From assembly GCA_017395685.1 (NCBI GenBank), contig JAFQOD010000049.1, positions 1-55,534 on the forward strand: a DNA stretch of 55,534 nt. Reading direction: 5' to 3'. Each line of letters starts with the position of its first letter. Position 1 is the stretch's first letter. A program made the position numbers and the translations under genes. The notes beneath the pieces were generated by a model. The model made no database searches and was not told where the DNA came from. It worked only from the letters and a program-made list of their open reading frames with translations. Source of the DNA: Clostridia bacterium (GTDB taxonomy: Bacteria > Bacillota > Clostridia > Christensenellales > Aristaeellaceae). Positions 25,874 through 36,145 of this stretch are shown piece by piece.

Positions 25874-26923
25874 ATGTCCAACATCGCAGTATTAACCAGC
25901 GGCGGCGACGCCCCCGGCATGAATGCGGCGGTTATGTCCGTTGCCAGGAATGCGGCTTATCTGGGAATGCCTCTGATCGGCATCAAGCGGGGCTATAACG
26001 GCCTGCTGGGCCGCGGCCAGAAATTCGAAGATGATTTTATCCGCCTGGATCTGGATACTGTGCTGGATATTGCCGATATGCCCGGTACCTATCTGCGCAC
26101 CGCCCGGTGCGATGAATTCAAGGATCCCGCCGTGCGGGAAAAGGCCGCCAAGATCCTCAGGGATCTGGATATCAGCGGCCTTGTGGTCATTGGCGGCGAC
26201 GGCAGCTTCCAGGGCGCTATGCGGCTTTGCGAGCTGGGCATTCCCTGTATCGGCATCCCCGGCACCATCGATAATGACCTTTCCTATACCGAAGTTACCC
26301 TGGGCTATGATACCGCAACCAACGTATGCGTGGATACTGTACGCGCCATCCGCGCCACATCCCGCTCCCATGACCGTCCCCACGTGGTAGAGGTGATGGG
26401 CCGCAACTGCGGCGATCTGGCCCTGGCCACTGCTGAGGCCACCGGCGCCGAAGTGGTTGTGGTGCCCGAAGCGGACTGGCGGATTGACGATGTGGCCAAG
26501 CGGCTCAATCATCAGATTGAAATCGGCAATACCCGCGCCACCGTGGTGGTAGCCGAAGGCTGCTGGGCCTCCATGGAGCCCTTTGACGTATATGAATTCC
26601 TGCATCCCTACGGCAAGCAGGTATTCCCCGGCGAGCCCATGACCACCAACCGCCTGGCCAGCATCCTCAAGCGCAAGTGCGGCATGGCGGAAGTGCGCTC
26701 CACCGTGGTGGGCTATACCCAGCGCGGCTGCTCCCCCACCGCCCGGGACAGCATGTTTGCTTTCGAAGCCGGCGCCATGGCCGTGCAGCTGCTGCGCAAG
26801 GGCATCAGCAATCAGGCCATCGGCGTGGAAAACGGCCACACCTTCTATATGCCCATGGAAAAGGCCCTGGCCGCCAAGCGTCATTTCAACCGCAGTCTGT
26901 ATAACCTGCTGAACGCACTGTAA
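25874..26923 (+). CDS. pfkA: ATP-dependent 6-phosphofructokinase
   Basis: A 349-aa phosphofructokinase converting fructose 6-phosphate to fructose 1,6-bisphosphate in glycolysis. TSGGDAPGMNA (8-18) is the nucleotide loop. GGDGS (107-111) and PGTIDND (129-135) carry glycine at the two places that separate ATP-dependent from pyrophosphate-dependent enzymes (GGDDT and PKTIDND), so ATP use is predicted. MGRNCGDLAL and the effector-side GYTQRG are present. It is slightly longer than the 320-aa Bacillus type. It is followed by a strong terminator. Confidence 0.95.
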   Translation: MSNIAVLTSGGDAPGMNAAVMSVARNAAYLGMPLIGIKRGYNGLLGRGQKFEDDFIRLDLDTVLDIADMPGTYLRTARCDEFKDPAVREKAAKILRDLDISGLVVIGGDGSFQGAMRLCELGIPCIGIPGTIDNDLSYTEVTLGYDTATNVCVDTVRAIRATSRSHDRPHVVEVMGRNCGDLALATAEATGAEVVVVPEADWRIDDVAKRLNHQIEIGNTRATVVVAEGCWASMEPFDVYEFLHPYGKQVFPGEPMTTNRLASILKRKCGMAEVRSTVVGYTQRGCSPTARDSMFAFEAGAMAVQLLRKGISNQAIGVENGHTFYMPMEKALAAKRHFNRSLYNLLNAL

Positions 26924-26936
26924 AAAGATTGATCCA

Positions 26937-26972
26937 TTCTGCTCCGGACTCCCCGGAGCAGAATTTTTTTTT
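26937..26972 (+). terminator. pfkA terminator
   Basis: An 11-bp perfect stem TTCTGCTCCGG/CCGGAGCAGAA (26937-26947/26953-26963) is followed by a T-run of nine. Confidence 0.95.
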
Positions 26973-26986
26973 GCAATAAAACGGCA

Positions 26987-27031
26987 TAGAAAAAGGGCCC
27001 TCTCCTCATTCCGTGAAGGAGAAGGCCCTTT
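26987..27031 (-). terminator. Terminator of the DUF5684-like membrane protein gene
   Basis: AAAGGGCC/GGCCCTTT (26992-26999/27024-27031) with inner TCTCCT/AGGAGA. On the minus strand it is followed by TTTTTC. Confidence 0.8.
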
Positions 27032-27038
27032 ATATCAC

Positions 27039-27746
27039 TTAATACTGCCCGTAGGGGGGATTATTGGCCCGGTCAGAGCGGCGGGCAATGGGCTGCTGGG
27101 GCTGCTGAACAGGCTGATAGGGCTGCTGGAAATCCTGCTGAGGCTGGAATTCCGGCTGAGGCTGGTAGGGCTGATACGCCTGGGGGGCAGGCTGATAGGG
27201 CTGCTGATACATGGGGGCGGGCTTCCTGCCGATATTGGCCAGCACGGAGGGCACGCCGATGCCATCCTTATATTGCACGCCCTGATATTCATATTCGCCG
27301 AAGGCGGCGATGCAGCTGAAGATATTGTTCAGCAGGCACAGGCCCACAAAATGCTTATCCTGCATGCCGAAGGAGCGGGCCATCTTATACTTGCGCATGA
27401 TGCCGGCCACAAAGAAGGCGCCCAGGGAAACCGTATTGAACAGCAGGGAGAGCACATAGCCCAGGCCTTCGCTGATAAAGAAGAAGGGGAAGCTGAACAG
27501 GAACGTGGTGCCCAGGCCAATCAGCAGGGCCCAGTAAATCTTGCCGTCCCACACGATCTTATAGCTGATATAGGCGCCGTAGAAGGGGATGAAGCTCTTC
27601 CAGCCCTTTTCCCCCGCCTTGCGGAAAACAAACCAGCGGATGCCCCAGCGAACCAGCAGCAGGGCGATCAGGCCCGCCACCATCAGAGAGCTGCCGAACA
27701 TGCCCACGCCATCCATGAAATTAGCAAATGCTCTTGCACGATACAT
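27039..27746 (-). CDS. DUF5684-like multi-spanning membrane protein with Pro/Gln-rich tail
   Basis: A 235-aa protein with about five hydrophobic segments in the first 165 residues. It contains GEKGWKSFIPFYGAYISYKI, a motif of a widespread but uncharacterised Bacillota membrane family (GxKPWxxLIPFYNxY). Residues from about 175 on are low-complexity and soluble, with repeated QPYQP/QAYQPYQPQP. The ATG at 27746 follows AGGTGGAAGAAAAT; a GTG four codons upstream overlaps that ribosome-binding site. A consensus promoter (27792-27820) drives it alone, so it is probably highly expressed. It is not part of the dynamin operon, which ends about 140 bp upstream. Confidence 0.85.
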   Translation of the reverse strand: MYRARAFANFMDGVGMFGSSLMVAGLIALLLVRWGIRWFVFRKAGEKGWKSFIPFYGAYISYKIVWDGKIYWALLIGLGTTFLFSFPFFFISEGLGYVLSLLFNTVSLGAFFVAGIMRKYKMARSFGMQDKHFVGLCLLNNIFSCIAAFGEYEYQGVQYKDGIGVPSVLANIGRKPAPMYQQPYQPAPQAYQPYQPQPEFQPQQDFQQPYQPVQQPQQPIARRSDRANNPPYGQY

Positions 27747-27791
27747 ATTTTCTTCCACCTTTCTTCCACATTCATCCAGATATCGCCTTTT

Positions 27792-27882: not shown

Positions 27883-28404
27883 TCAGGATTGCAGAATGCT
27901 CAGAATGCTTTGATAGTATTTATCCAGCTGGGAAAGATATTGACGGACGCCTTCCCGCAGGGCCTGCTTTTCCCGGCATTCCCCTGCCGCTTTGGCCGCC
28001 GGGAACAGCGCCAGCCCGGGGCCGGCGGAGGATACCGCCACCGCCCAGGCCGGGGCATGGCACAGCAGCGAAATGCCCAGCCCTGCCAGCGCCCCTGCCG
28101 CCGGGATGACCGCCTGAAGGCAGGGGGGCATGCCCCTGGGGGCATCCATTTTCTGAAAGCGCATATCCTGCAGGAAAATATCCCGGATCAGGGCCGCCTT
28201 TCGGGCATCCTGCTGCTCCAGGGCCATCAGCCACCGGCCCCAGCGGTTATCCCGGCTTGCCCAATCGGATGCGGCATCCTGCAAGATCAGCTGCAGCTGG
28301 GAAAAGGGCGGCAGCTGGCCCCGGGCACGCCTGCCCATCTGCCCGGCCAGCCGGGCCATAAAATCCTGCCAATGGGCCTGAAATTGCCCGATATAATCCT
28401 GCAA
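27883..28404 (-). CDS. Unknown protein, last gene of the dynamin operon
   Basis: I do not recognise a family. The 173-aa protein has a helical N-terminal part (1-95, several Trp and Arg, DRFQ-like helices), a hydrophobic central stretch (about 97-135: AVIPAAGALAGLGISLLCHAP then AVAVSSAGPG) that could form one or two membrane hairpins, and a helical C-terminus. It starts 3 bp after the stop of the third dynamin gene, which ties its translation to the GTPases. The membrane hairpin would suit a partner that places the GTPases at the membrane; this is inference. Confidence 0.75.
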   Translation of the reverse strand: MQDYIGQFQAHWQDFMARLAGQMGRRARGQLPPFSQLQLILQDAASDWASRDNRWGRWLMALEQQDARKAALIRDIFLQDMRFQKMDAPRGMPPCLQAVIPAAGALAGLGISLLCHAPAWAVAVSSAGPGLALFPAAKAAGECREKQALREGVRQYLSQLDKYYQSILSILQS

Positions 28405-28407
28405 TGA

Positions 28408-30348
28408 TTATTCCTCCTTTTCGGGGCGGATCTGCCGTCTGATGGTTTCCAGCCCCTCCCGGCGATTGCCGATCTGCTGCATATCGCCCTTCACATCCAT
28501 AATTTTTTCTTCCAGCTGCTGCTGGCGGATTTTTTCTTCCTGGATCCAGCCCAGCACCGTTTTCTGATAAGCGGCCAGATAGCGATCGATTTCCGTATCG
28601 ATGGCGGCGCCCACCTGATCGATATAGCTGTTCAGCTGGGCCTGGGCCCCATCCACCACTTCATCAAAGTATTTTTTCAGCGGTTCCTCCAGCCGCAGCC
28701 GGGTATTCTTTTTCATTTCATCCACATTGATGCCCGCCTTGCCGGCCCCGAAGAGACCGCCCACAAAGCCGATGGCCGCCCCGATCACGGTGCCCACCCC
28801 GGGGGCCATCATGGTACCGATGGCTGCGCCTGTGGCTGCGCCGCCCCCTGCCCAGCGATTCTCCTTTTTCACCATATCCTGTGTGTATACCCCCGCCAGA
28901 TCGATTTCCCGGATCTTGGGCTGCTCGATCACGGGCAGGATGGTATCCACCTGAATATCGCCGGGCTTTATGCATTTCAGATCCTTGAAATGCAGCCGGA
29001 AGGCCCGCTGGAAATCCTGCATCCGGCGGCGGAAGGTGCCCACGGCGTCATTCTTATCCCCCGCATATGGACGGAAGACCTCCAGGATCATCTCCGCCTG
29101 TTTCTTGCAATCGGCGGTGATGGTATCGTGCATATAGTGATTAAGATTATCGGTGCTGCTCTGCTGATCCAGTGCATCCAGGATCGCCTGCCGGGCATCC
29201 AGGGACAGATCTTCATCCTCCGCTTCCTGCTGGATCCGGCTGCGGTATTCCGCCACCCCTTCTTCATAGAACCGGGCCTGCAGCCGCTTCTGGGCGGCCA
29301 CAAAATCCGTCAGATCCATCTGCTGGGTATTGCGCAGCACCTGCAGCCTTTCCTCCAGATCGGCGGTCATCTCCTCCATGCTGCCGGAAATGGCGCCGTA
29401 GATGCCGTCCATCAGGGAAAGCAGCTTCTTGGCCTGGGCGGCAGCCCGCTGACGGGCGGTATGCTCCATCAGCTTCCCTTCATTTTCTATGGAAAGGGCG
29501 GGATCCTGGGGATATTTGCCCGCCTCAAATGCTTCCGGGGCGAAGGTGCGCATTACATCCAGGGAGGCATAGGAAAGCACCAGGGGATTTCCCAGGGAAA
29601 ACCGGGCCCGGGCCGTTTTTTCCACAAATTTCAGCATCATTTTCTGCTCCCTGGGGGGAATCAGATCCACCTTGGTCACCACGAAGACGCACTGCTCCAG
29701 AATGGATTCCATCTGATTGCTGATAAATGTGCACAGGGAATCGGGCAGGGGACGCACCGCATCCACCAGAATGATGGAAAGATCGGATACCTCCTGCAGG
29801 GTACGGATGGTGGCCTGCTGATGCCAATGGGTGGTGGCGTCCAGGCCGGGGGTATCGATGATGCGAAGATTGTGCTTCAGCAGGGTATGGGAAGGCAGCG
29901 TCACCATCAGCTGGCTGAGCCCCTCCGCCTCCTCATTCCAGGCGGCCAGGGCATTCAGCTTTTCCTTCAGGGCGGCAAGATCGGGAAAGATGAATTTTTC
30001 CTCCCTGCCATCCTGCCACAGGGCCGAAAAGCCGTATTCCGGGCCGTATTCCATGATGGTGGAGGCCACCGTGGTGCCCTGCAGCACCCCGGCCTCCAGC
30101 AGGTTCATCCGCAGCAGCGCATTGATAAACGTGCTTTTGCCGCTGCTGAATTCCCCCACCACGGAAATATTCAGCCGCTTATCCCCCTGCTTTTCCCGGA
30201 TTTTCTGCAGCCGGGCCCGGAAATCCATCTCCACCGCCTGCTCCCACTGATATTTTTCAATCAGGCAGGAGGCAAAATCCAGATGATCCTCCAGATGGGC
30301 CAGCTCGCTGATATTTTCCCAGGAGAAATAAGCGGTATCATTCATCAT
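28408..30348 (-). CDS. Dynamin-like GTPase 3 of the operon
   Basis: A 646-aa bacterial dynamin-like protein. G1 is GEFSSGKST (65-73), G3 is DTPGLD (from D165) and G4 is TKVD (225-228). A threonine in GTTVAST provides G2. After the GTPase domain come long helices (about 290-480), then a Gly/Ala-rich hydrophobic stretch (about 498-538: GGGAATGAAIG to GFVGGLFGAG) of the kind that acts as a membrane-inserting paddle, then a helical end. Such proteins bind and remodel membranes on GTP hydrolysis. It starts 7 bp after GTPase 2 and is clearly divergent from the other two. Confidence 0.9.
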   Translation of the reverse strand: MMNDTAYFSWENISELAHLEDHLDFASCLIEKYQWEQAVEMDFRARLQKIREKQGDKRLNISVVGEFSSGKSTFINALLRMNLLEAGVLQGTTVASTIMEYGPEYGFSALWQDGREEKFIFPDLAALKEKLNALAAWNEEAEGLSQLMVTLPSHTLLKHNLRIIDTPGLDATTHWHQQATIRTLQEVSDLSIILVDAVRPLPDSLCTFISNQMESILEQCVFVVTKVDLIPPREQKMMLKFVEKTARARFSLGNPLVLSYASLDVMRTFAPEAFEAGKYPQDPALSIENEGKLMEHTARQRAAAQAKKLLSLMDGIYGAISGSMEEMTADLEERLQVLRNTQQMDLTDFVAAQKRLQARFYEEGVAEYRSRIQQEAEDEDLSLDARQAILDALDQQSSTDNLNHYMHDTITADCKKQAEMILEVFRPYAGDKNDAVGTFRRRMQDFQRAFRLHFKDLKCIKPGDIQVDTILPVIEQPKIREIDLAGVYTQDMVKKENRWAGGGAATGAAIGTMMAPGVGTVIGAAIGFVGGLFGAGKAGINVDEMKKNTRLRLEEPLKKYFDEVVDGAQAQLNSYIDQVGAAIDTEIDRYLAAYQKTVLGWIQEEKIRQQQLEEKIMDVKGDMQQIGNRREGLETIRRQIRPEKEE

Positions 30349-30355
30349 TGGTATT

Positions 30356-32389
30356 TCATCCCTTCACAAGATCAAAAATCAGTTCATCCAGCTGGATGCT
30401 CAGGGCCTTGATCTCCTCTTCACACCGGCTGATCACCTGTTCCCGCCGGGCCATATTTTCTTTGCCCTGCTCCATTTCGGCGATGATGATTTTCATCTGG
30501 GCATTCACATTGCCGATTTCCGCATCCAGGCCGGAAACCACCGCCTGGGCGATTTCATTGAATTTTTCCGTTACCTTTTCGGATACCTCATCGGCGGATT
30601 TTTCTGCTTCCTCCGCCAGGCGGCCAACCAGGTTTTCCGTCAGCCCGGCCTTCAGCTTTTTCATGGCGTTGCTCTGGCTCTTATTCATATTAAAGAGGAA
30701 CACGCCCACCAGCATGGCGCAGATGGTGAAGGGATTGAACAGCCCCAGCACCCCCAGCAGCGCCCCGGCGCCCAATTCGATGGCGGCGGTTTTCGCCAAT
30801 TCCATGCTCAGGCCATTGATGCCGGCGGAGGCGGCCAGGCCCACATCGCCCATCAGCAGGCCCCCTGCGGCCCCCACGATCCGCTGCCAGGTGGGCACCG
30901 GATCCGCCTGATAGGCGCCGTCGCTAAGATTCATCTGAATTTCATCCACCTCCGCCAGAATGGCGGCGGCGTCCGCCTCGGCCGATTCAAAAACGGCGGC
31001 GGATTTTTCTTCGATCAGAGGGGTCAGCACATCCTTTCGCCAGGCGCGCTGATGCTCTTCCACCTTTTCTGTAATATATTCGGAAATTTCCTTTACAATG
31101 ACCTCTGTTTTTTCCTTGTTGGGGATCAGGCCGAACTGATTCTTGGGTTCGTATTCCTCAATCCAGGCGGTTACCTGATCGCTCAGATCCAGGATATTCC
31201 GCCGGGCCGTCCGGCGCAGATCCTGCTTGCACTGCTCGATACGCAGGGCCATTTTGCTTTCCAATTGATCCTTCCGGGCGGTCAGATCCTGCAGCAGAGG
31301 CTTTACCTGCTCATAGCGCAGCTTCATTTCATTCAGATCGGTGCTGAGCATTTTGCGCTGCATGGGGATCACCTTGAACAGCGCCTCTGCATTGAGGATT
31401 CGCTTGAGTTCCCGGGCGGGCTGGGCCAGCTTCATTTTGCCCTTCTGGCCGGTAAGGAACCGGGACAGCCGCTGCTCAAATTCCATCATGCCGGAGGCCT
31501 CGAATTTGGCCGGATCGCCCTCCATCTTTCCGTCCAGGGCGTCCAGGGCAGATACAAAATGGATACCGGAGGCGCCGAAGCTGGTATAATTCTTCAGCTT
31601 CATCTGGGCGAACTTTTTCACCATTTCCTGCTCCCGCCGGGGGATGCAGTCAAACCGGTTCACCACAAAGAAAGGATCATCAAAGCCCTGGCCCTTGAGA
31701 TCATGGATGACAAAATCCATTTCGCTTTCCGAGCAAAGGGCCTGGGCATTGAGCACCATCAGGATGGCGTCCGCCCGGGACAGATAATCCATGGTCACCC
31801 GGGTGCGGGTGGCATGCTCATTGAGGCCGGGGGAATCGATGATTTCCACCCCGTTTTTCAGCAGCTCCAGGGGCCAGAATAATTCCACCTTCTCATAGGG
31901 GCTTTCCAGCAGCATTTCGCTGGCGTCCATGCCCATGGGAATGACCACATAATCCTCAATTTCATCATAGGGAATTTCCAGGGGGGGCACATTCTGCATC
32001 TGATGGGCCTGCATGTGCTCAAGGGCCCGGGGGGATAATTCCTGGGGCAGCACTTCCGGCAAGGGATTGCGGAAATGCAGGATGGCCCGCTTTTCTTCCC
32101 CGTATTTCACCTCATTGATCACCGCCGTGCAGGGAATGGAATAGGCCGGCAGCACCTCATCCCCCAGGAAGGAATTGATAAAGGTGGATTTTCCGTTCTT
32201 GAAGGTGCCAACCACCATAATCTTAAAGGAATCGTTATGCACCTTATCCTGCAGCACATCCAGATTTTCCTGATATTTATCCATATTCAGCCGGGCGATC
32301 ACCTGGGAGGACCGGCCCAGCAGACCGGCCATTTCCTGCCGCTGGCCGGCAAAGATCTGATACGCCTGGTGATTGGCATTGGAAGTCAT
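30356..32389 (-). CDS. Dynamin-like GTPase 2 of the operon
   Basis: A 677-aa dynamin-like protein. G1 is GTFKNGKST (61-69) and G3 is DSPGLNE (185-191), with serine replacing the usual threonine. G4 is NRFD (244-247), in place of TKxD. The insert between G1 and G3 is about 30 residues longer than in its neighbours. A helical stalk follows, then a hydrophobic region (about 520-580, ending GVLGLFNPFTICAMLVGVFLF), stronger than in the other two and likely to insert in the membrane, then a coiled-coil end. The altered G4 may mean lower or altered guanine specificity. It lies 30 bp after GTPase 1. Confidence 0.9.
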   Translation of the reverse strand: MTSNANHQAYQIFAGQRQEMAGLLGRSSQVIARLNMDKYQENLDVLQDKVHNDSFKIMVVGTFKNGKSTFINSFLGDEVLPAYSIPCTAVINEVKYGEEKRAILHFRNPLPEVLPQELSPRALEHMQAHQMQNVPPLEIPYDEIEDYVVIPMGMDASEMLLESPYEKVELFWPLELLKNGVEIIDSPGLNEHATRTRVTMDYLSRADAILMVLNAQALCSESEMDFVIHDLKGQGFDDPFFVVNRFDCIPRREQEMVKKFAQMKLKNYTSFGASGIHFVSALDALDGKMEGDPAKFEASGMMEFEQRLSRFLTGQKGKMKLAQPARELKRILNAEALFKVIPMQRKMLSTDLNEMKLRYEQVKPLLQDLTARKDQLESKMALRIEQCKQDLRRTARRNILDLSDQVTAWIEEYEPKNQFGLIPNKEKTEVIVKEISEYITEKVEEHQRAWRKDVLTPLIEEKSAAVFESAEADAAAILAEVDEIQMNLSDGAYQADPVPTWQRIVGAAGGLLMGDVGLAASAGINGLSMELAKTAAIELGAGALLGVLGLFNPFTICAMLVGVFLFNMNKSQSNAMKKLKAGLTENLVGRLAEEAEKSADEVSEKVTEKFNEIAQAVVSGLDAEIGNVNAQMKIIIAEMEQGKENMARREQVISRCEEEIKALSIQLDELIFDLVKG

Positions 32390-32419
32390 GATGGTATCTC
32401 CTTCTGTTATTGTATTGCT

Positions 32420-34315
32420 TTACGCCTGCAGGGCATCCAGATGCTGCTGCAGGGATTTCATTTGTTCCTTCAGGGCCTGCATATCCTTGCTTCCCTGGGG
32501 ATCAAGGCTGTTTTCCAGGGCCTGATGCTGGGCATCCAGCCACAGCTGCTGCTGCTGCCTGGCCTGGCCGATCATTTCATCATAGATGGCCTTGATGCGC
32601 CTGCTGCTGTTGGAAAGGGAAGATTCCACCAATTCCGGTACATTCGCCCGGATGGCGGCCTTGATTTCTTCCCGCTGCTTTTCGATGCGGCCCTTGAATA
32701 CCTGTTCGGAAATGAGGGAGGATCCGGTGCCGATGCCCATGGTGGCGGCCAGGGTGAAGCCCCCCAGGGAGGTGCACAGCATGGCCCCGGCAATGGTGAG
32801 CACCGTGGTACCCGCCCGGGTGATCATCCGCTGCCTGTCGATATTGGATAGTTTCACGTCCTTCCGGGCAGTGAAGCCGGAAAATTCCTCTTTATCGGTG
32901 ATGGGGGCAGGGGCCACATCGATCCTGCCCTTTACCTGCTGCTCCAGCACCGCATTGAGCCATTTGCTGTCGCCTGCAATCTGGCGGGATACCCCCTGCT
33001 CCATGGCGGAGGCCATATTGGTCAATTCAATCTTCATCCGGTAGGGATAGCTTTCCTGCCACCATTTCTGCAGATTGCCCGCCATGGCGGCCTCATATTC
33101 CAGCCGCTCGGCAATGCGGTCGGCGCTTTCATCCGCCTTTTCCCGGATCCAATCCAGGCACTGGCCGCACCGGGAAAGCATCTCCACTTCCACCTTGCCC
33201 ATGGCCACGCCTGCATGGCTGAGGGCGCTCTTTTTCTTGCGGATTTTTTCCTGCCGCTGCTGATCATCCCCCTCCAGCAGGGCCTGTTTTTCCTTCAGGG
33301 CATCCATGGCCGTGGAAAGGATGGCGCTGAGCCGGCCCTTCAGCCATTCCTGGGTAAGGGCCTGACGTTCGGGATGCTGCATCCAGGCGATCAGCTGCCC
33401 CTGCACCTTCTCCATACCCATGATATCCTGATACCGGTCATCCGGCATTTCCACCTGATAGGGCAGGTAAACGGGGATATCCATGCCCCACAGCTTCAGC
33501 TTATTCTTAACATATTCCACCACCATGGGCCGCTCCTTCATGGGAATCTGATCCATCTTGGTCAGGATCAGCATCAGGAAGGGGGTTTTTCTGGCGATGA
33601 GCCGCTGCTCGATGAACAATTTTTCGCTCTCGCTCAGGGCGGCAGTGGCACTGACGGCAATGATGGCGCCGTCCGCAGAAAGCAGGGCCTCCCCGATCGT
33701 CCGGGCCCGCTCCTGATCCAGATCGCCTGCGCCGGGGGTATCCATCAGCTCCATATGGGTTTTTTCCAGGAAGGGATGGGGAATGCCCACCAGGGCGCTG
33801 CCCTCGGGGCCGTTGCCGTCGATGGGATCGGCGATCAGCCCGTCCCATGCCTTTTCATCCAGGGGCATGGATCGCTTGCCCCCCCTGCCGTCGGCATAGA
33901 CCAGCACCGGCTTTTCATGATAGCGGATGCGGGTGAGCAGGGCGGTGGTGGGCAGATTGCCCACCGGCAGCACTTCATTGCCCAGGAAAGCATTGAGGAA
34001 GGTGCTCTTGCCCCGGCTGAATTCCCCGGCCACCGCCACGGTGAACCGTTCCTTTTCCGCCTGGGCCCGGGCCTGCTCTGCCGCCCTGGCCAGGGCATCC
34101 ATGCCCATTTCCCGGAGCAGATAGATGGCGCGGCGCACCTGCTGGCTCATCTGATAATCCAATTGCACGGGGGCGGTATCCACTTCCGGCAATTCCGTTT
34201 TTTCTTCCGAGGCCGCCGCCGGAATGGGGGCAGGGGCCGCCTGGGGAGCTGCCTGGCTGGCTGGCAGCTCCTCCTTATTCTTAAAGAAATTGGCATTCCG
34301 AACGATCTTGGCCAT
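32420..34315 (-). CDS. Dynamin-like GTPase 1 of the operon
   Basis: A 631-aa dynamin-like protein. A flexible Ala/Pro-rich N-terminal segment (about 15-45) precedes the GTPase domain with G1 GEFSRGKST (97-105), G3 DTPGAGD (from D192) and G4 TKMD (252-255). A long helical stalk follows, with a hydrophobic stretch near 515-550 (TTVLTIAGAMLCTSLGGFTL) as a candidate paddle, and a coiled-coil end (about 590-631). It begins 10 bp after the 177-aa gene. Bacterial dynamins commonly work as hetero-oligomers of two adjacent gene products. Here three adjacent ones are available. Confidence 0.9.
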   Translation of the reverse strand: MAKIVRNANFFKNKEELPASQAAPQAAPAPIPAAASEEKTELPEVDTAPVQLDYQMSQQVRRAIYLLREMGMDALARAAEQARAQAEKERFTVAVAGEFSRGKSTFLNAFLGNEVLPVGNLPTTALLTRIRYHEKPVLVYADGRGGKRSMPLDEKAWDGLIADPIDGNGPEGSALVGIPHPFLEKTHMELMDTPGAGDLDQERARTIGEALLSADGAIIAVSATAALSESEKLFIEQRLIARKTPFLMLILTKMDQIPMKERPMVVEYVKNKLKLWGMDIPVYLPYQVEMPDDRYQDIMGMEKVQGQLIAWMQHPERQALTQEWLKGRLSAILSTAMDALKEKQALLEGDDQQRQEKIRKKKSALSHAGVAMGKVEVEMLSRCGQCLDWIREKADESADRIAERLEYEAAMAGNLQKWWQESYPYRMKIELTNMASAMEQGVSRQIAGDSKWLNAVLEQQVKGRIDVAPAPITDKEEFSGFTARKDVKLSNIDRQRMITRAGTTVLTIAGAMLCTSLGGFTLAATMGIGTGSSLISEQVFKGRIEKQREEIKAAIRANVPELVESSLSNSSRRIKAIYDEMIGQARQQQQLWLDAQHQALENSLDPQGSKDMQALKEQMKSLQQHLDALQA

Positions 34316-34325
34316 TGTATCCTCC

Positions 34326-34859
34326 TTATTCTGCCAGGTACTTGCCGTAGAAATCCTGATCCAGGGCCTGATAGAGGGGATAGAGGGAAGGCTCCATAAT
34401 GATCTGCATCAGCCGGCGCATATGGGCCTCATCTTCCTGGGTGTATTCCGCCCCCTCCAGCAGGGCAGCGGCCACCTTATCATACTGATCCAGCAGTTCA
34501 TCCCGCATGGCCCGGTATTCCGCCTTCTTCATATGCTTCACCGCATCGTGGCGGAAAAAGCCGATGGCCTTGGAAAAATCCACCTGGGCAAAGGCGGGAT
34601 CATAAGAAAGATTGGAAAAGCCGATCATTTTCTTTTCCGGCCAGGTCATGGTGACCGTGTAGCGGATGGGATATACCAGCGTCTGATCCGGCTGACCGGT
34701 GACCTTGTATTTCAGAAAGGGCACCTGCAGGCACAATTCATCATGGATGATTTTGAGAATGGGCAGCCCCGGCACATAGCCCAGGGGCATATTGCAATGG
34801 AGCACGAAATCATGGGTATTGATATGCTGAACGGTTTCACGGATTGACAGCTTGCTCAT
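34326..34859 (-). CDS. Unknown 177-aa protein of the dynamin operon
   Basis: No family is recognised. The N-terminal 100 residues alternate beta segments (HDFVLHCNMPLGYVPG, LCLQVPFLKYKVTG, YPIRYTVTMTWPEKKMIGF) and the rest is helical, with many acidic residues. There is no signal peptide or membrane segment. The start at 34859 is chosen because AGGAGG lies 8 bp upstream; the longer form would overlap the peptidase gene. It lies 17 bp after the repeat-peptidase stop and 10 bp before GTPase 1. That position between them suggests an adaptor, but nothing in the sequence proves it. Confidence 0.75.
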   Translation of the reverse strand: MSKLSIRETVQHINTHDFVLHCNMPLGYVPGLPILKIIHDELCLQVPFLKYKVTGQPDQTLVYPIRYTVTMTWPEKKMIGFSNLSYDPAFAQVDFSKAIGFFRHDAVKHMKKAEYRAMRDELLDQYDKVAAALLEGAEYTQEDEAHMRRLMQIIMEPSLYPLYQALDQDFYGKYLAE

Positions 34860-34876
34860 TTTCATTTCCTCCTTCA

Positions 34877-36145
34877 TCAGTGGCACAGGATCATCTGATG
34901 ATCCCCGTCGGCCCAGGCATCTTCAAATACATCCAGGGGCACCAATTCGCCGCAGCCATCGGGGTGGCCGGAATCATTGAGGATCACCATGGGATTTTCG
35001 GGATCGGTGCGGTCAATACCGATGACCTGCACCGCATGATCGGCGCCGTCCACAGGGGCAAAGGCATTATCGGATTCCCCTTCCCAGATTTCGCCGCTAT
35101 CCACGCTGACGATCACCTTGCCGCCCTCATTCAGGCACTGCTCGATATCATCAATCTGGCCATGAAAGCTCATTTCATTATCGATACCGTGATAATCCAG
35201 CATCTTATTCATGTTCAGGGCGGTGGCGCCCCCTTCTTCGGTAAACCAGCCGTTTTCCTCAGCGGTATCGGCGAAATCCTCGATATCCACTTCCTCGCCG
35301 GTCAGCTCTTCAATGACGAATTTCTGGGAATAGAGGGTGCAGCGGTTGGTAGCCTCCTGGAATTCCCAGTTTTCCATGGAGGAGGCAGGATCGCCGGCCA
35401 CGGCCTCGGGATCGGCGGCCTCGGGATCGAAATTGGGCATCTGGGGCACTTCGTATTCCACGTCATACAGGCCCTCTGCGGCAATCAGTTCCAGGGAATT
35501 GGTTTCCGGATTGTTGGCATAGGCCTCTCCCCCGTCATATTGCTGATCCCCGTCGGTATCCACCTGAACGGAATAGAAATCTGCATTACCGTCCCCATCA
35601 GCATCGGCGATCACTTCTTCTTCCATGAAATCGATCTGCTGATCGCCGTCAAAATCATAGCGGGTGGTGGCGGTGGTCACACCGTCCTCGGTCACAATCT
35701 GGGATGCGGTATCAAACTGGCCGTCCCCATCTGTATCGCCGTAGACGTGGGCGGAATCCACCACGCCGTCCTGATCGTAATCATTGGCCCGTACCAGCTG
35801 ATCCACGATGCCGTCCCCGTCCACATCCACTTCGGCAGCGAAATTATCCATCACGCCGTTGTGATCGGTATCCATGGCGGCCACGTCCTCAATGCCGTCC
35901 CCATCCAGATCGGCTACCACCATATCTATGATCCCGTCGCCCTCCTGATCCAGGGCGGTCACATCGGTATATCCGTCCCCATCCAGATCCACATTCACCA
36001 GATCGGTGACGCCGTCCCCGTCGCTGTCCAGGGCCACGGCAGTGCCGTCTTCATATCCATCCCCATCCAGATCCAGGGGCATTGCGGTGGCATCCACGAT
36101 GCCGTCGCCGTCAAAATCGAATTCAACCGGTTCAAAATCGTACAT
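34877..36145 (-). CDS. Acidic DxDGDGxxD-repeat protein with C-terminal papain/C39-like cysteine peptidase domain
   Basis: A 422-aa protein. Residues 8-205 hold about 13 repeats of DxDGDGxxD type every 13-15 residues (such as FDGDGIVD, LDGDGYED, SDGDGVTD), resembling thrombospondin-3/dockerin calcium loops. Residues 255-422 look like a C39-like peptidase. Q263 lies six residues before C269, as in papain (Q19/C25). H370 in ADHAVQVIGID and N390 in MVILND would complete the site. There is no signal peptide, which is unusual because such calcium repeats are normally extracellular. It is the first gene of the six-gene dynamin operon, behind AAAGGAGG. Whether it is an active protease or only a fold relative is untested. 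Confidence 0.82.
   Translation of the reverse strand: MYDFEPVEFDFDGDGIVDATAMPLDLDGDGYEDGTAVALDSDGDGVTDLVNVDLDGDGYTDVTALDQEGDGIIDMVVADLDGDGIEDVAAMDTDHNGVMDNFAAEVDVDGDGIVDQLVRANDYDQDGVVDSAHVYGDTDGDGQFDTASQIVTEDGVTTATTRYDFDGDQQIDFMEEEVIADADGDGNADFYSVQVDTDGDQQYDGGEAYANNPETNSLELIAAEGLYDVEYEVPQMPNFDPEAADPEAVAGDPASSMENWEFQEATNRCTLYSQKFVIEELTGEEVDIEDFADTAEENGWFTEEGGATALNMNKMLDYHGIDNEMSFHGQIDDIEQCLNEGGKVIVSVDSGEIWEGESDNAFAPVDGADHAVQVIGIDRTDPENPMVILNDSGHPDGCGELVPLDVFEDAWADGDHQMILCH

Follow-up and report, generated by a model that had tools for sequence, protein, structure and literature searches.

What brings a cysteine peptidase, two small proteins and three dynamin-like GTPases together in a single bacterial operon is the question raised by contig JAFQOD010000049.1 of the Clostridia bacterium assembly GCA_017395685.1, a stretch of 55,534 nucleotides (the window). 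The operon encodes a C39-type peptidase (C39) with putative calcium-binding repeats, a companion protein (P5), the GTPases GTPa, GTPb and GTPc, and a further small protein (P1). Bacterial dynamins are known, yet their on-switch is mostly open, and this set offers a directly testable control circuit. Comparison across genomes shows, at the level of sequence, that the six genes belong to a conserved system, organised as an operon, with C39 and P5 at its core, and the recurrence of the set in distant gut bacteria points to a system that has not been described.

Conservation of the set was assessed by comparing an alignment of the peptidase domain alone with a collection of 84,980 species, each represented by a single genome. 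The best 80 of at least 123 relatives were retained, so the sample leans to window-like peptidases, and their neighbourhoods were read by iterated profiles anywhere in the fetched stretch (below, handles with L denote loci and those with G genomes). These 80 loci are spread over several phyla, and the complete six-gene set was recovered in 17 of them (16 without the near copy L055), with nine Bacillota and six Bacteroidota rows; Bacteroides oleiciplenus YIT 12058 (L064) and Bacterium C-53, both strain records, are among the carriers, the latter having no phylum label. The six genes, which the sequence-only reading had taken for a possible system, therefore do recur as a set in unrelated genomes. 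P5 was found in 62 of the 80 loci (in 61 cases no further than 300 bp downstream of the peptidase gene), a dynamin in 66, Hsp70 in 41, either of the latter two in 76, and LytTR in 25, directly upstream within 3 kb in 18. P1 is confined to 17 loci, all of them with C39, P5 and at least three dynamins; it was not found in 12 of the 29 loci with at least three dynamins, some of whose contigs are cut. L055 and L090 closely duplicate L054 and L089, with gene lengths that are equal or almost so and C39 letters that are not identical, and were left out of the 78-locus counts.

Closer to the window, the set is scarce. Single-protein searches of the same family found the peptidase domain in 4/150 and 4/291 genomes, own included, and P5 in the own genome only (1/150); P5 is likewise present in one of the 29 genomes of the genus. 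Arrangements around the peptidase differ among the six foreign hits, of which G001 and G078 are taken up below: LytTR-Hsp70-C39-P5-dynamin-GrpE-dynamin in G404, LytTR-C39 at a contig end in G377, C39-Hsp70-dynamin in G040 and, in G338, an ordinary C39_2 peptidase (E 1.3e-19) with no dynamin match nearby. The sequence-only reading had held that homologues of the peptidase, P5 and P1 lying mostly away from dynamins would speak against a system. This was pursued in part: in a phylum sample of 398 genomes, the profiles of P5 and of P1 each matched the own genome only and nowhere else among the other 397, which leaves the proposal standing and shows only that stand-alone P5 or P1 copies are not common, because the sample had no other carrier.

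The three GTPases represent distinct classes. Dynamin_N (Pfam) is above cut-off in all three (E 1e-20 to 2e-28), and each has the P-loop, DxPG and TKxD/NRxD motifs of the dynamin superfamily G domain; the P-loops are GEFSRGKST (GTPa), GTFKNGKST (GTPb) and GEFSSGKST (GTPc), as read from the letters alone. GTPb also carries PF21808, the bacterial dynamin helical domain, and matches BDLP1 (PDB 2j68) at E 2.5e-40 across residues 23-646, while the closest solved structures are Cj-DLP (5owv, E 7.7e-12) for GTPa and IniA (E 5.9e-12) for GTPc. As to the helical neck/trunk and membrane-binding paddle of the superfamily, one hydrophobic segment was seen in each window GTPase, at a similar place in GTPa and GTPc. 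These proteins are the only matches in the own genome that span the Dynamin_N domain, two short ones (32-34 positions) lying on other contigs.

Among ORFs (open reading frames) of at least 480 aa (amino acids), and leaving out L055, L081 (whose C39 is the same as in L039) and L090, best scores gave the order a-b-c in 17/17 non-duplicate six-gene loci, window included. Across the 26 loci with exactly three dynamins of this length, the best class was GTPa, GTPb and GTPc at positions 1, 2 and 3 in 24, 24 and 23 cases. Simple patterns located G1 in 15/17/16, G3 in 14/17/16 and G4 in 13/16/12 of the 17 six-gene loci at positions 1/2/3, and a quick G-domain tree, for which rows without a P-loop match were omitted (137/142 kept), placed each class in one group among the six-gene loci. 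Departures are L064, where P1 precedes the third dynamin, and L056 and L070, each with an extra dynamin ORF. The six proteins also agree in their distances between loci, which correlate for every pair of proteins (Spearman 0.60-0.92) and most strongly for C39 and P5. Identity to the window proteins is highest for the catalytic part of C39 (39-66%), followed by GTPb (30-56%) and P5 (31-50%); GTPa (21-44%), GTPc (19-39%) and P1 (18-34%) are less similar. Three orthologue classes in constant order fit a hetero-oligomer.

The window C39 is a predicted papain-like, C39-type peptidase, as its conserved catalytic residues and its structure model indicate. Its match to Peptidase_C39_2 (Pfam) stays below the cut-off (E 7e-4; 20.6 bits where 24 are required). 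In the model a papain-like catalytic domain with Gln, Cys, His and Asp follows regular one-strand repeats. The first 240 residues contain 10 DxDxDG motifs, against a mean of 0.44 and a maximum of 3 in 1000 shuffles, and this repeated-loop pattern and the regular repeats of the model are those of a putative calcium-binding repeat protein with acidic DxDGDG repeats. Across the family the number of such motifs ranges from 0 to 64, the repeat region is highly variable in length, and many peptidases have no repeats. No evident signal peptide was seen, and 91/92 peptidases are without a hydrophobic N-terminus.

P5 and P1 are each without a Pfam or NCBIfam model above cut-off. The P5 structure model is of high quality by its own scores (predicted local distance difference test, pLDDT, 96.5; predicted template modelling score, pTM, 0.90) and contains a helix-plus-sheet domain whose fold matches are weak and mixed, with cystatins among them. 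Kinship of P5 with the Hsp70 lid was considered and dropped, the profile match (E 0.024) covering the helical part only. For P1, the best match among PDB sequences was a spidroin (E 0.006), taken as chance. P1 had been described as membrane-hairpin-like; a simple scan did find a hydrophobic segment, but one and not two, so that a hairpin is no more than a possibility.

Table 1. Genes of the operon, in order of transcription, with positions in the window.
Gene	Position	Strand	Product and features
C39	34877..36145	-	422 aa; N-terminal DxDGDG repeats ~7-221 and predicted papain-like C39-type domain ~246-422; Q263, C269, H370, D391
P5	34326..34859	-	177 aa; helix and antiparallel sheet, then helical bundle (model); peptidase companion
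GTPa	32420..34315	-	631 aa; first dynamin-like GTPase; hydrophobic segment near residues 505-523
GTPb	30356..32389	-	677 aa; second dynamin-like GTPase; BDLP1-like along its length; G4 motif NRFD
GTPc	28408..30348	-	646 aa; third dynamin-like GTPase
P1	27883..28404	-	173 aa; hydrophobic region; TTG start

The operon itself (positions 27883-36145, Table 1) was first read as a six-gene minus-strand run, and its ORFs are indeed complete, co-directional and tightly packed. The intergenic gaps of 17, 10, 30, 7 and 3 bp assume an ATG start of P5 at 34859; starting at the alternative GTG (34886), P5 would share bases with the peptidase gene. The latter has a clear ribosome-binding site, AAAGGAGG, and the TTG start of P1 is preceded by AAAAGGAGG. 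Base composition gives no signal of foreign origin (guanine-plus-cytosine content 0.572 in the operon versus 0.562 and 0.553 in the flanks). Two candidate control sites were discarded: a GTCGCC/GGCGAC palindrome 5' of the peptidase gene is in none of the other upstream regions, and among the 21 loci that have a LytTR gene close by, LytTR-type direct repeats occurred upstream in one (strict pattern) or two (loose pattern).

Operons with the dynamin trio form part of a wider C39-P5 family; in its other versions the core is joined by dynamin pairs plus Hsp70/GrpE or by a HerA-like ATPase in place of the dynamins. Counted on the same strand within 10 kb, a HerA-like ATPase (DUF87) lies near C39 without a dynamin in 11/80 loci and together with one in 2, dynamins occur alone in 63, and neither is present in 4. 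The dynamins are not what stays constant in the family, C39 and mostly P5 being accompanied in those 11 loci by the ATPase instead, and in L058 C39-P5 is followed by an unrelated gene, with neither dynamin nor HerA-like ATPase. L058 is also one of four loci without dynamin or Hsp70; of the others, L077 and L052 stop where the contig ends or less than 1 kb short of it, and L076 has a HerA-like gene. The HerA-like protein is about 900 aa when complete (its DUF87 domain was tested in L065, L030 and L031), and Hsp70 also occurs in 12 of the 13 HerA-type loci (L060, L062, L065, L067, L074, L076, L078, L100, L103, L108, L109, L111 and L116). GrpE was found by profile in 11/80 loci (PF01025 in the member tested). 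A distant version exists within the window genome's own family (L030:5493-11664 and L031:3657-10054), where C39 lies near small proteins, a HerA-like ATPase and a protein whose match to Hsp70 is partial and borderline. Genomes G001 and G078 have C39 with a HerA-like gene and a gene that matches Hsp70 in part, at a score slightly above the cut-off in G078 and under it in G001.

Raw counts over the 78 loci strongly associate repeats with the absence of Hsp70 (Fisher 1.2e-9), as if the two were alternative switches, and a third dynamin likewise with the absence of Hsp70 (Fisher 6.2e-6); the two apparent alternations are only a lead because the C39 tree holds too few independent changes. Further variants were noted in passing: protein kinase genes near C39 in 13/80 loci by profile, among them a kinase with leucine-rich repeats (L046:6376-8241); tandem C39 genes before P5 and dynamins, around position 10000 of L089 and L090, from gammaproteobacterial symbionts of tubeworms; and several Hsp70-type ORFs surrounding C39 and two dynamins in an Akkermansia locus (L105).

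Three dynamins with a peptidase, a combination not known to the sequence-only reading, are not restricted to C39: a genome of the same genus pairs such a trio with an M48 peptidase. The M48 trio was found in 3/150 genomes of the family (PF01435 in G134 and G080; G102 in pieces on two contigs), the dynamin trio being interrupted by the metallopeptidase gene (L025:4989-13856, L026:1346-8840, L027 and L023, from G134, G080 and G102). The trio in G134 also has a zinc-ribbon-like protein.

On the C39 tree, from which L077 was also omitted, 12 phylum changes are needed, compared with a least possible 6 and 28.2 in shuffles. This suggests transfer, without proving it because many loci are metagenome bins. 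C39 relatives occur in 28 plasmid records (Rhodococcus, Prescottella and Anabaena), and dynamin genes are nearby in all four plasmid stretches read, Hsp70 in three. The Rhodococcus plasmid pRWAY01 shows the order dynamin, dynamin/GTPase, Hsp70, DxDGDG protein, C39, small protein and sigma factor, and the Anabaena plasmid pANA01 (L035, 2846-14196) carries C39 and P5 together with two dynamins, Hsp70 and two DO-GTPase-like genes, one of which passes the Pfam cut-off. Phage or viral carriage found no support, C39 having no match in phage records and neither C39 nor P5 detecting relatives in viral contigs. A phage-type integrase gene (PF00589; L044:7294-8385) stands upstream of a six-gene set, with kin in L059 and L103. 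At the window locus, phosphofructokinase and DUF5684 genes (25874-27758) adjoin the operon, and the content downstream varies among same-genus genomes. The operon is in none of ten same-genus relatives that share the phosphofructokinase gene, over about 4 to 14 kb beyond it. Neighbouring genes are mostly housekeeping-like, both among the eight ORFs scanned with Pfam in the window and in seven loci inspected by eye.

How the parts might work together can be proposed only tentatively. The reading put forward here, at less than even confidence, is a membrane machine of three dynamins that responds to membrane damage or to an invader, under the control of a peptidase which calcium triggers and P5 restrains. 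P5, with its weakly cystatin-like sheet domain, would keep the peptidase inactive in the resting cell. A breach of the envelope would let calcium in, the repeats would bind it, and the activated peptidase would cut P5, P1 or one of the dynamins. Assembly of the GTPases a, b and c, with P1 as a partial anchor, might follow, and the damaged membrane would be sealed or walled off; where repeats are missing, Hsp70/GrpE may act as the switch instead. Both the trigger, calcium or membrane damage, and the role of the peptidase as effector or regulator are conjectural. Calpain acts in eukaryotic membrane repair, and the logic would resemble it by analogy, homology not being claimed.

The same parts could also form a conflict system directed against phages or plasmids, in which the sensor of an invader or of a disturbed membrane would be the dynamins, Hsp70 or the HerA-like ATPase, the peptidase would be an effector that stops growth or kills the infected cell, and P5 the antidote. 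This possibility, doubtful but to be taken seriously, draws on the very patchy yet phylum-wide occurrence of the core, the swappable nucleoside triphosphatase (NTPase) modules, the plasmid-borne relatives close to dynamins and Hsp70, the integrase gene 5' of C39 in L044, with its kin in two other loci, and the PADLOC Leo dynamin models, which match all three dynamins. The pANA01 locus links the C39-P5 family to predicted GTPase-centred conflict systems, DO-GTPases being a class placed in such systems by Kaur et al. 2020 (PMC7159879). The housekeeping-like neighbours speak against it, no systematic defence-island test having been made, as does the absence of relatives from the phage records and viral contigs searched.

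A vesicle or export device seems unlikely. Dynamins would release vesicles, the leaderless repeat peptidase would be their cargo, unfolded at low cytosolic calcium and activated once outside, and P5 would be a cytosolic guard. Calcium-driven folding of repeats outside the cell is known from RTX (repeats-in-toxin) proteins, and the very variable repeat region would suit such a cargo; the near-universal lack of a hydrophobic N-terminus, the many peptidases devoid of repeats and the Hsp70/GrpE partners, which are cytosolic in known systems, do not. LeoABC, reported to promote vesicle-linked secretion (PMC4159319), is a further point in its favour. Still less probable is processing, in which C39 would mature P1 or another small partner, like the leader-cutting C39 domains of ABC exporters, for the dynamins to act on the product: P1 is unlikely as a general substrate because it was not found in 63/80 loci, although some have cut contigs and divergent copies may escape the profile. 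That unrelated genes lie together by chance or by hitch-hiking can be practically dismissed; short intergenic gaps by themselves would not exclude it, no support for it was found, and it is contradicted by the recurrence of one composition in 17 loci from two phyla, the constant dynamin order and the correlated distances.

On a broader and speculative reading, the C39-P5 pair would be the protease-partner core of an as yet undescribed stress or immune platform that occurs in many phyla and can be coupled to one of several exchangeable NTPase machines: three dynamins plus P1, two dynamins plus Hsp70/GrpE, or the HerA-like ATPase. The trio form, with its calcium-repeat sensor, would be a bacterial counterpart of calpain-driven membrane repair in logic, though not by homology. 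That the same core stands with HerA-like ATPases suggests regulation by a module of more general use, and should calcium entry be the trigger, bacteria would respond to membrane damage through a protease, as animal cells do.

Among known systems, C39 and other papain-like peptidases that have dedicated inhibitors (staphopain-staphostatin and, as an analogy, calpain-calpastatin) were compared with the C39-P5 pair, in which P5 is only a candidate inhibitor; neither is known to include a link to dynamins. LeoABC of ETEC (enterotoxigenic Escherichia coli) resembles the operon in having several dynamin genes proposed to act jointly, and the best PADLOC Leo matches reach E 2.4e-11 for GTPa, 8.8e-23 for GTPb and 3.4e-18 for GTPc. 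However, the second dynamin of LeoABC is divided between LeoB and LeoC, giving two dynamins in three genes (PMC4159319), whereas the window has three full dynamins, no split GTPase gene, and a peptidase, P5 and P1 in addition; NCBIfam DLP_LeoA scores of 19.6-26.4 bits, against a cut-off of 325, place the GTPases outside LeoABC. Bacterial dynamin pairs (Nostoc BDLP1, Cj-DLP1/2, B. subtilis DynA, IniA) share the adjacency of dynamin-like GTPases, and GTPb matches BDLP1 along almost all of its length; they differ from the window's three classes and peptidase-P5 module in that no peptidase partner is described, the word 'peptidase' not occurring in the available part of PMC6104087.

Predicted GTPase-centred conflict systems (Kaur et al. 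2020, PMC7159879) are similar in their GTPase pairs, partly with Hsp70/GrpE, and in the peptidase modules of sister systems, as far as the available part of that paper extends. They differ in being built on DO-GTPases and GAP1, not dynamins ('dynamin' and 'C39' are both absent from that part), and Pfam scans of the six operon products and of eight ORFs around them showed no DO-GTPase, nor was an Hsp70 found in the operon or next to it, which sets the operon apart from the DO-GTPase/GAP1 type. Death and TRADD-N systems, covered in part by PMC8195603, were also among those compared. PADLOC-DB of 2023, to which later systems are external, yielded Leo-type models on the dynamins and a chance-level Cas10 row, and none on C39, P5 or P1. 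The six-gene set was not described in the open-access literature searched, mostly titles and abstracts, with subscription papers barely represented and preprints outside its scope. Within the literature covered, the system as a whole is new, and it is assembled from catalytic parts that belong to known families.

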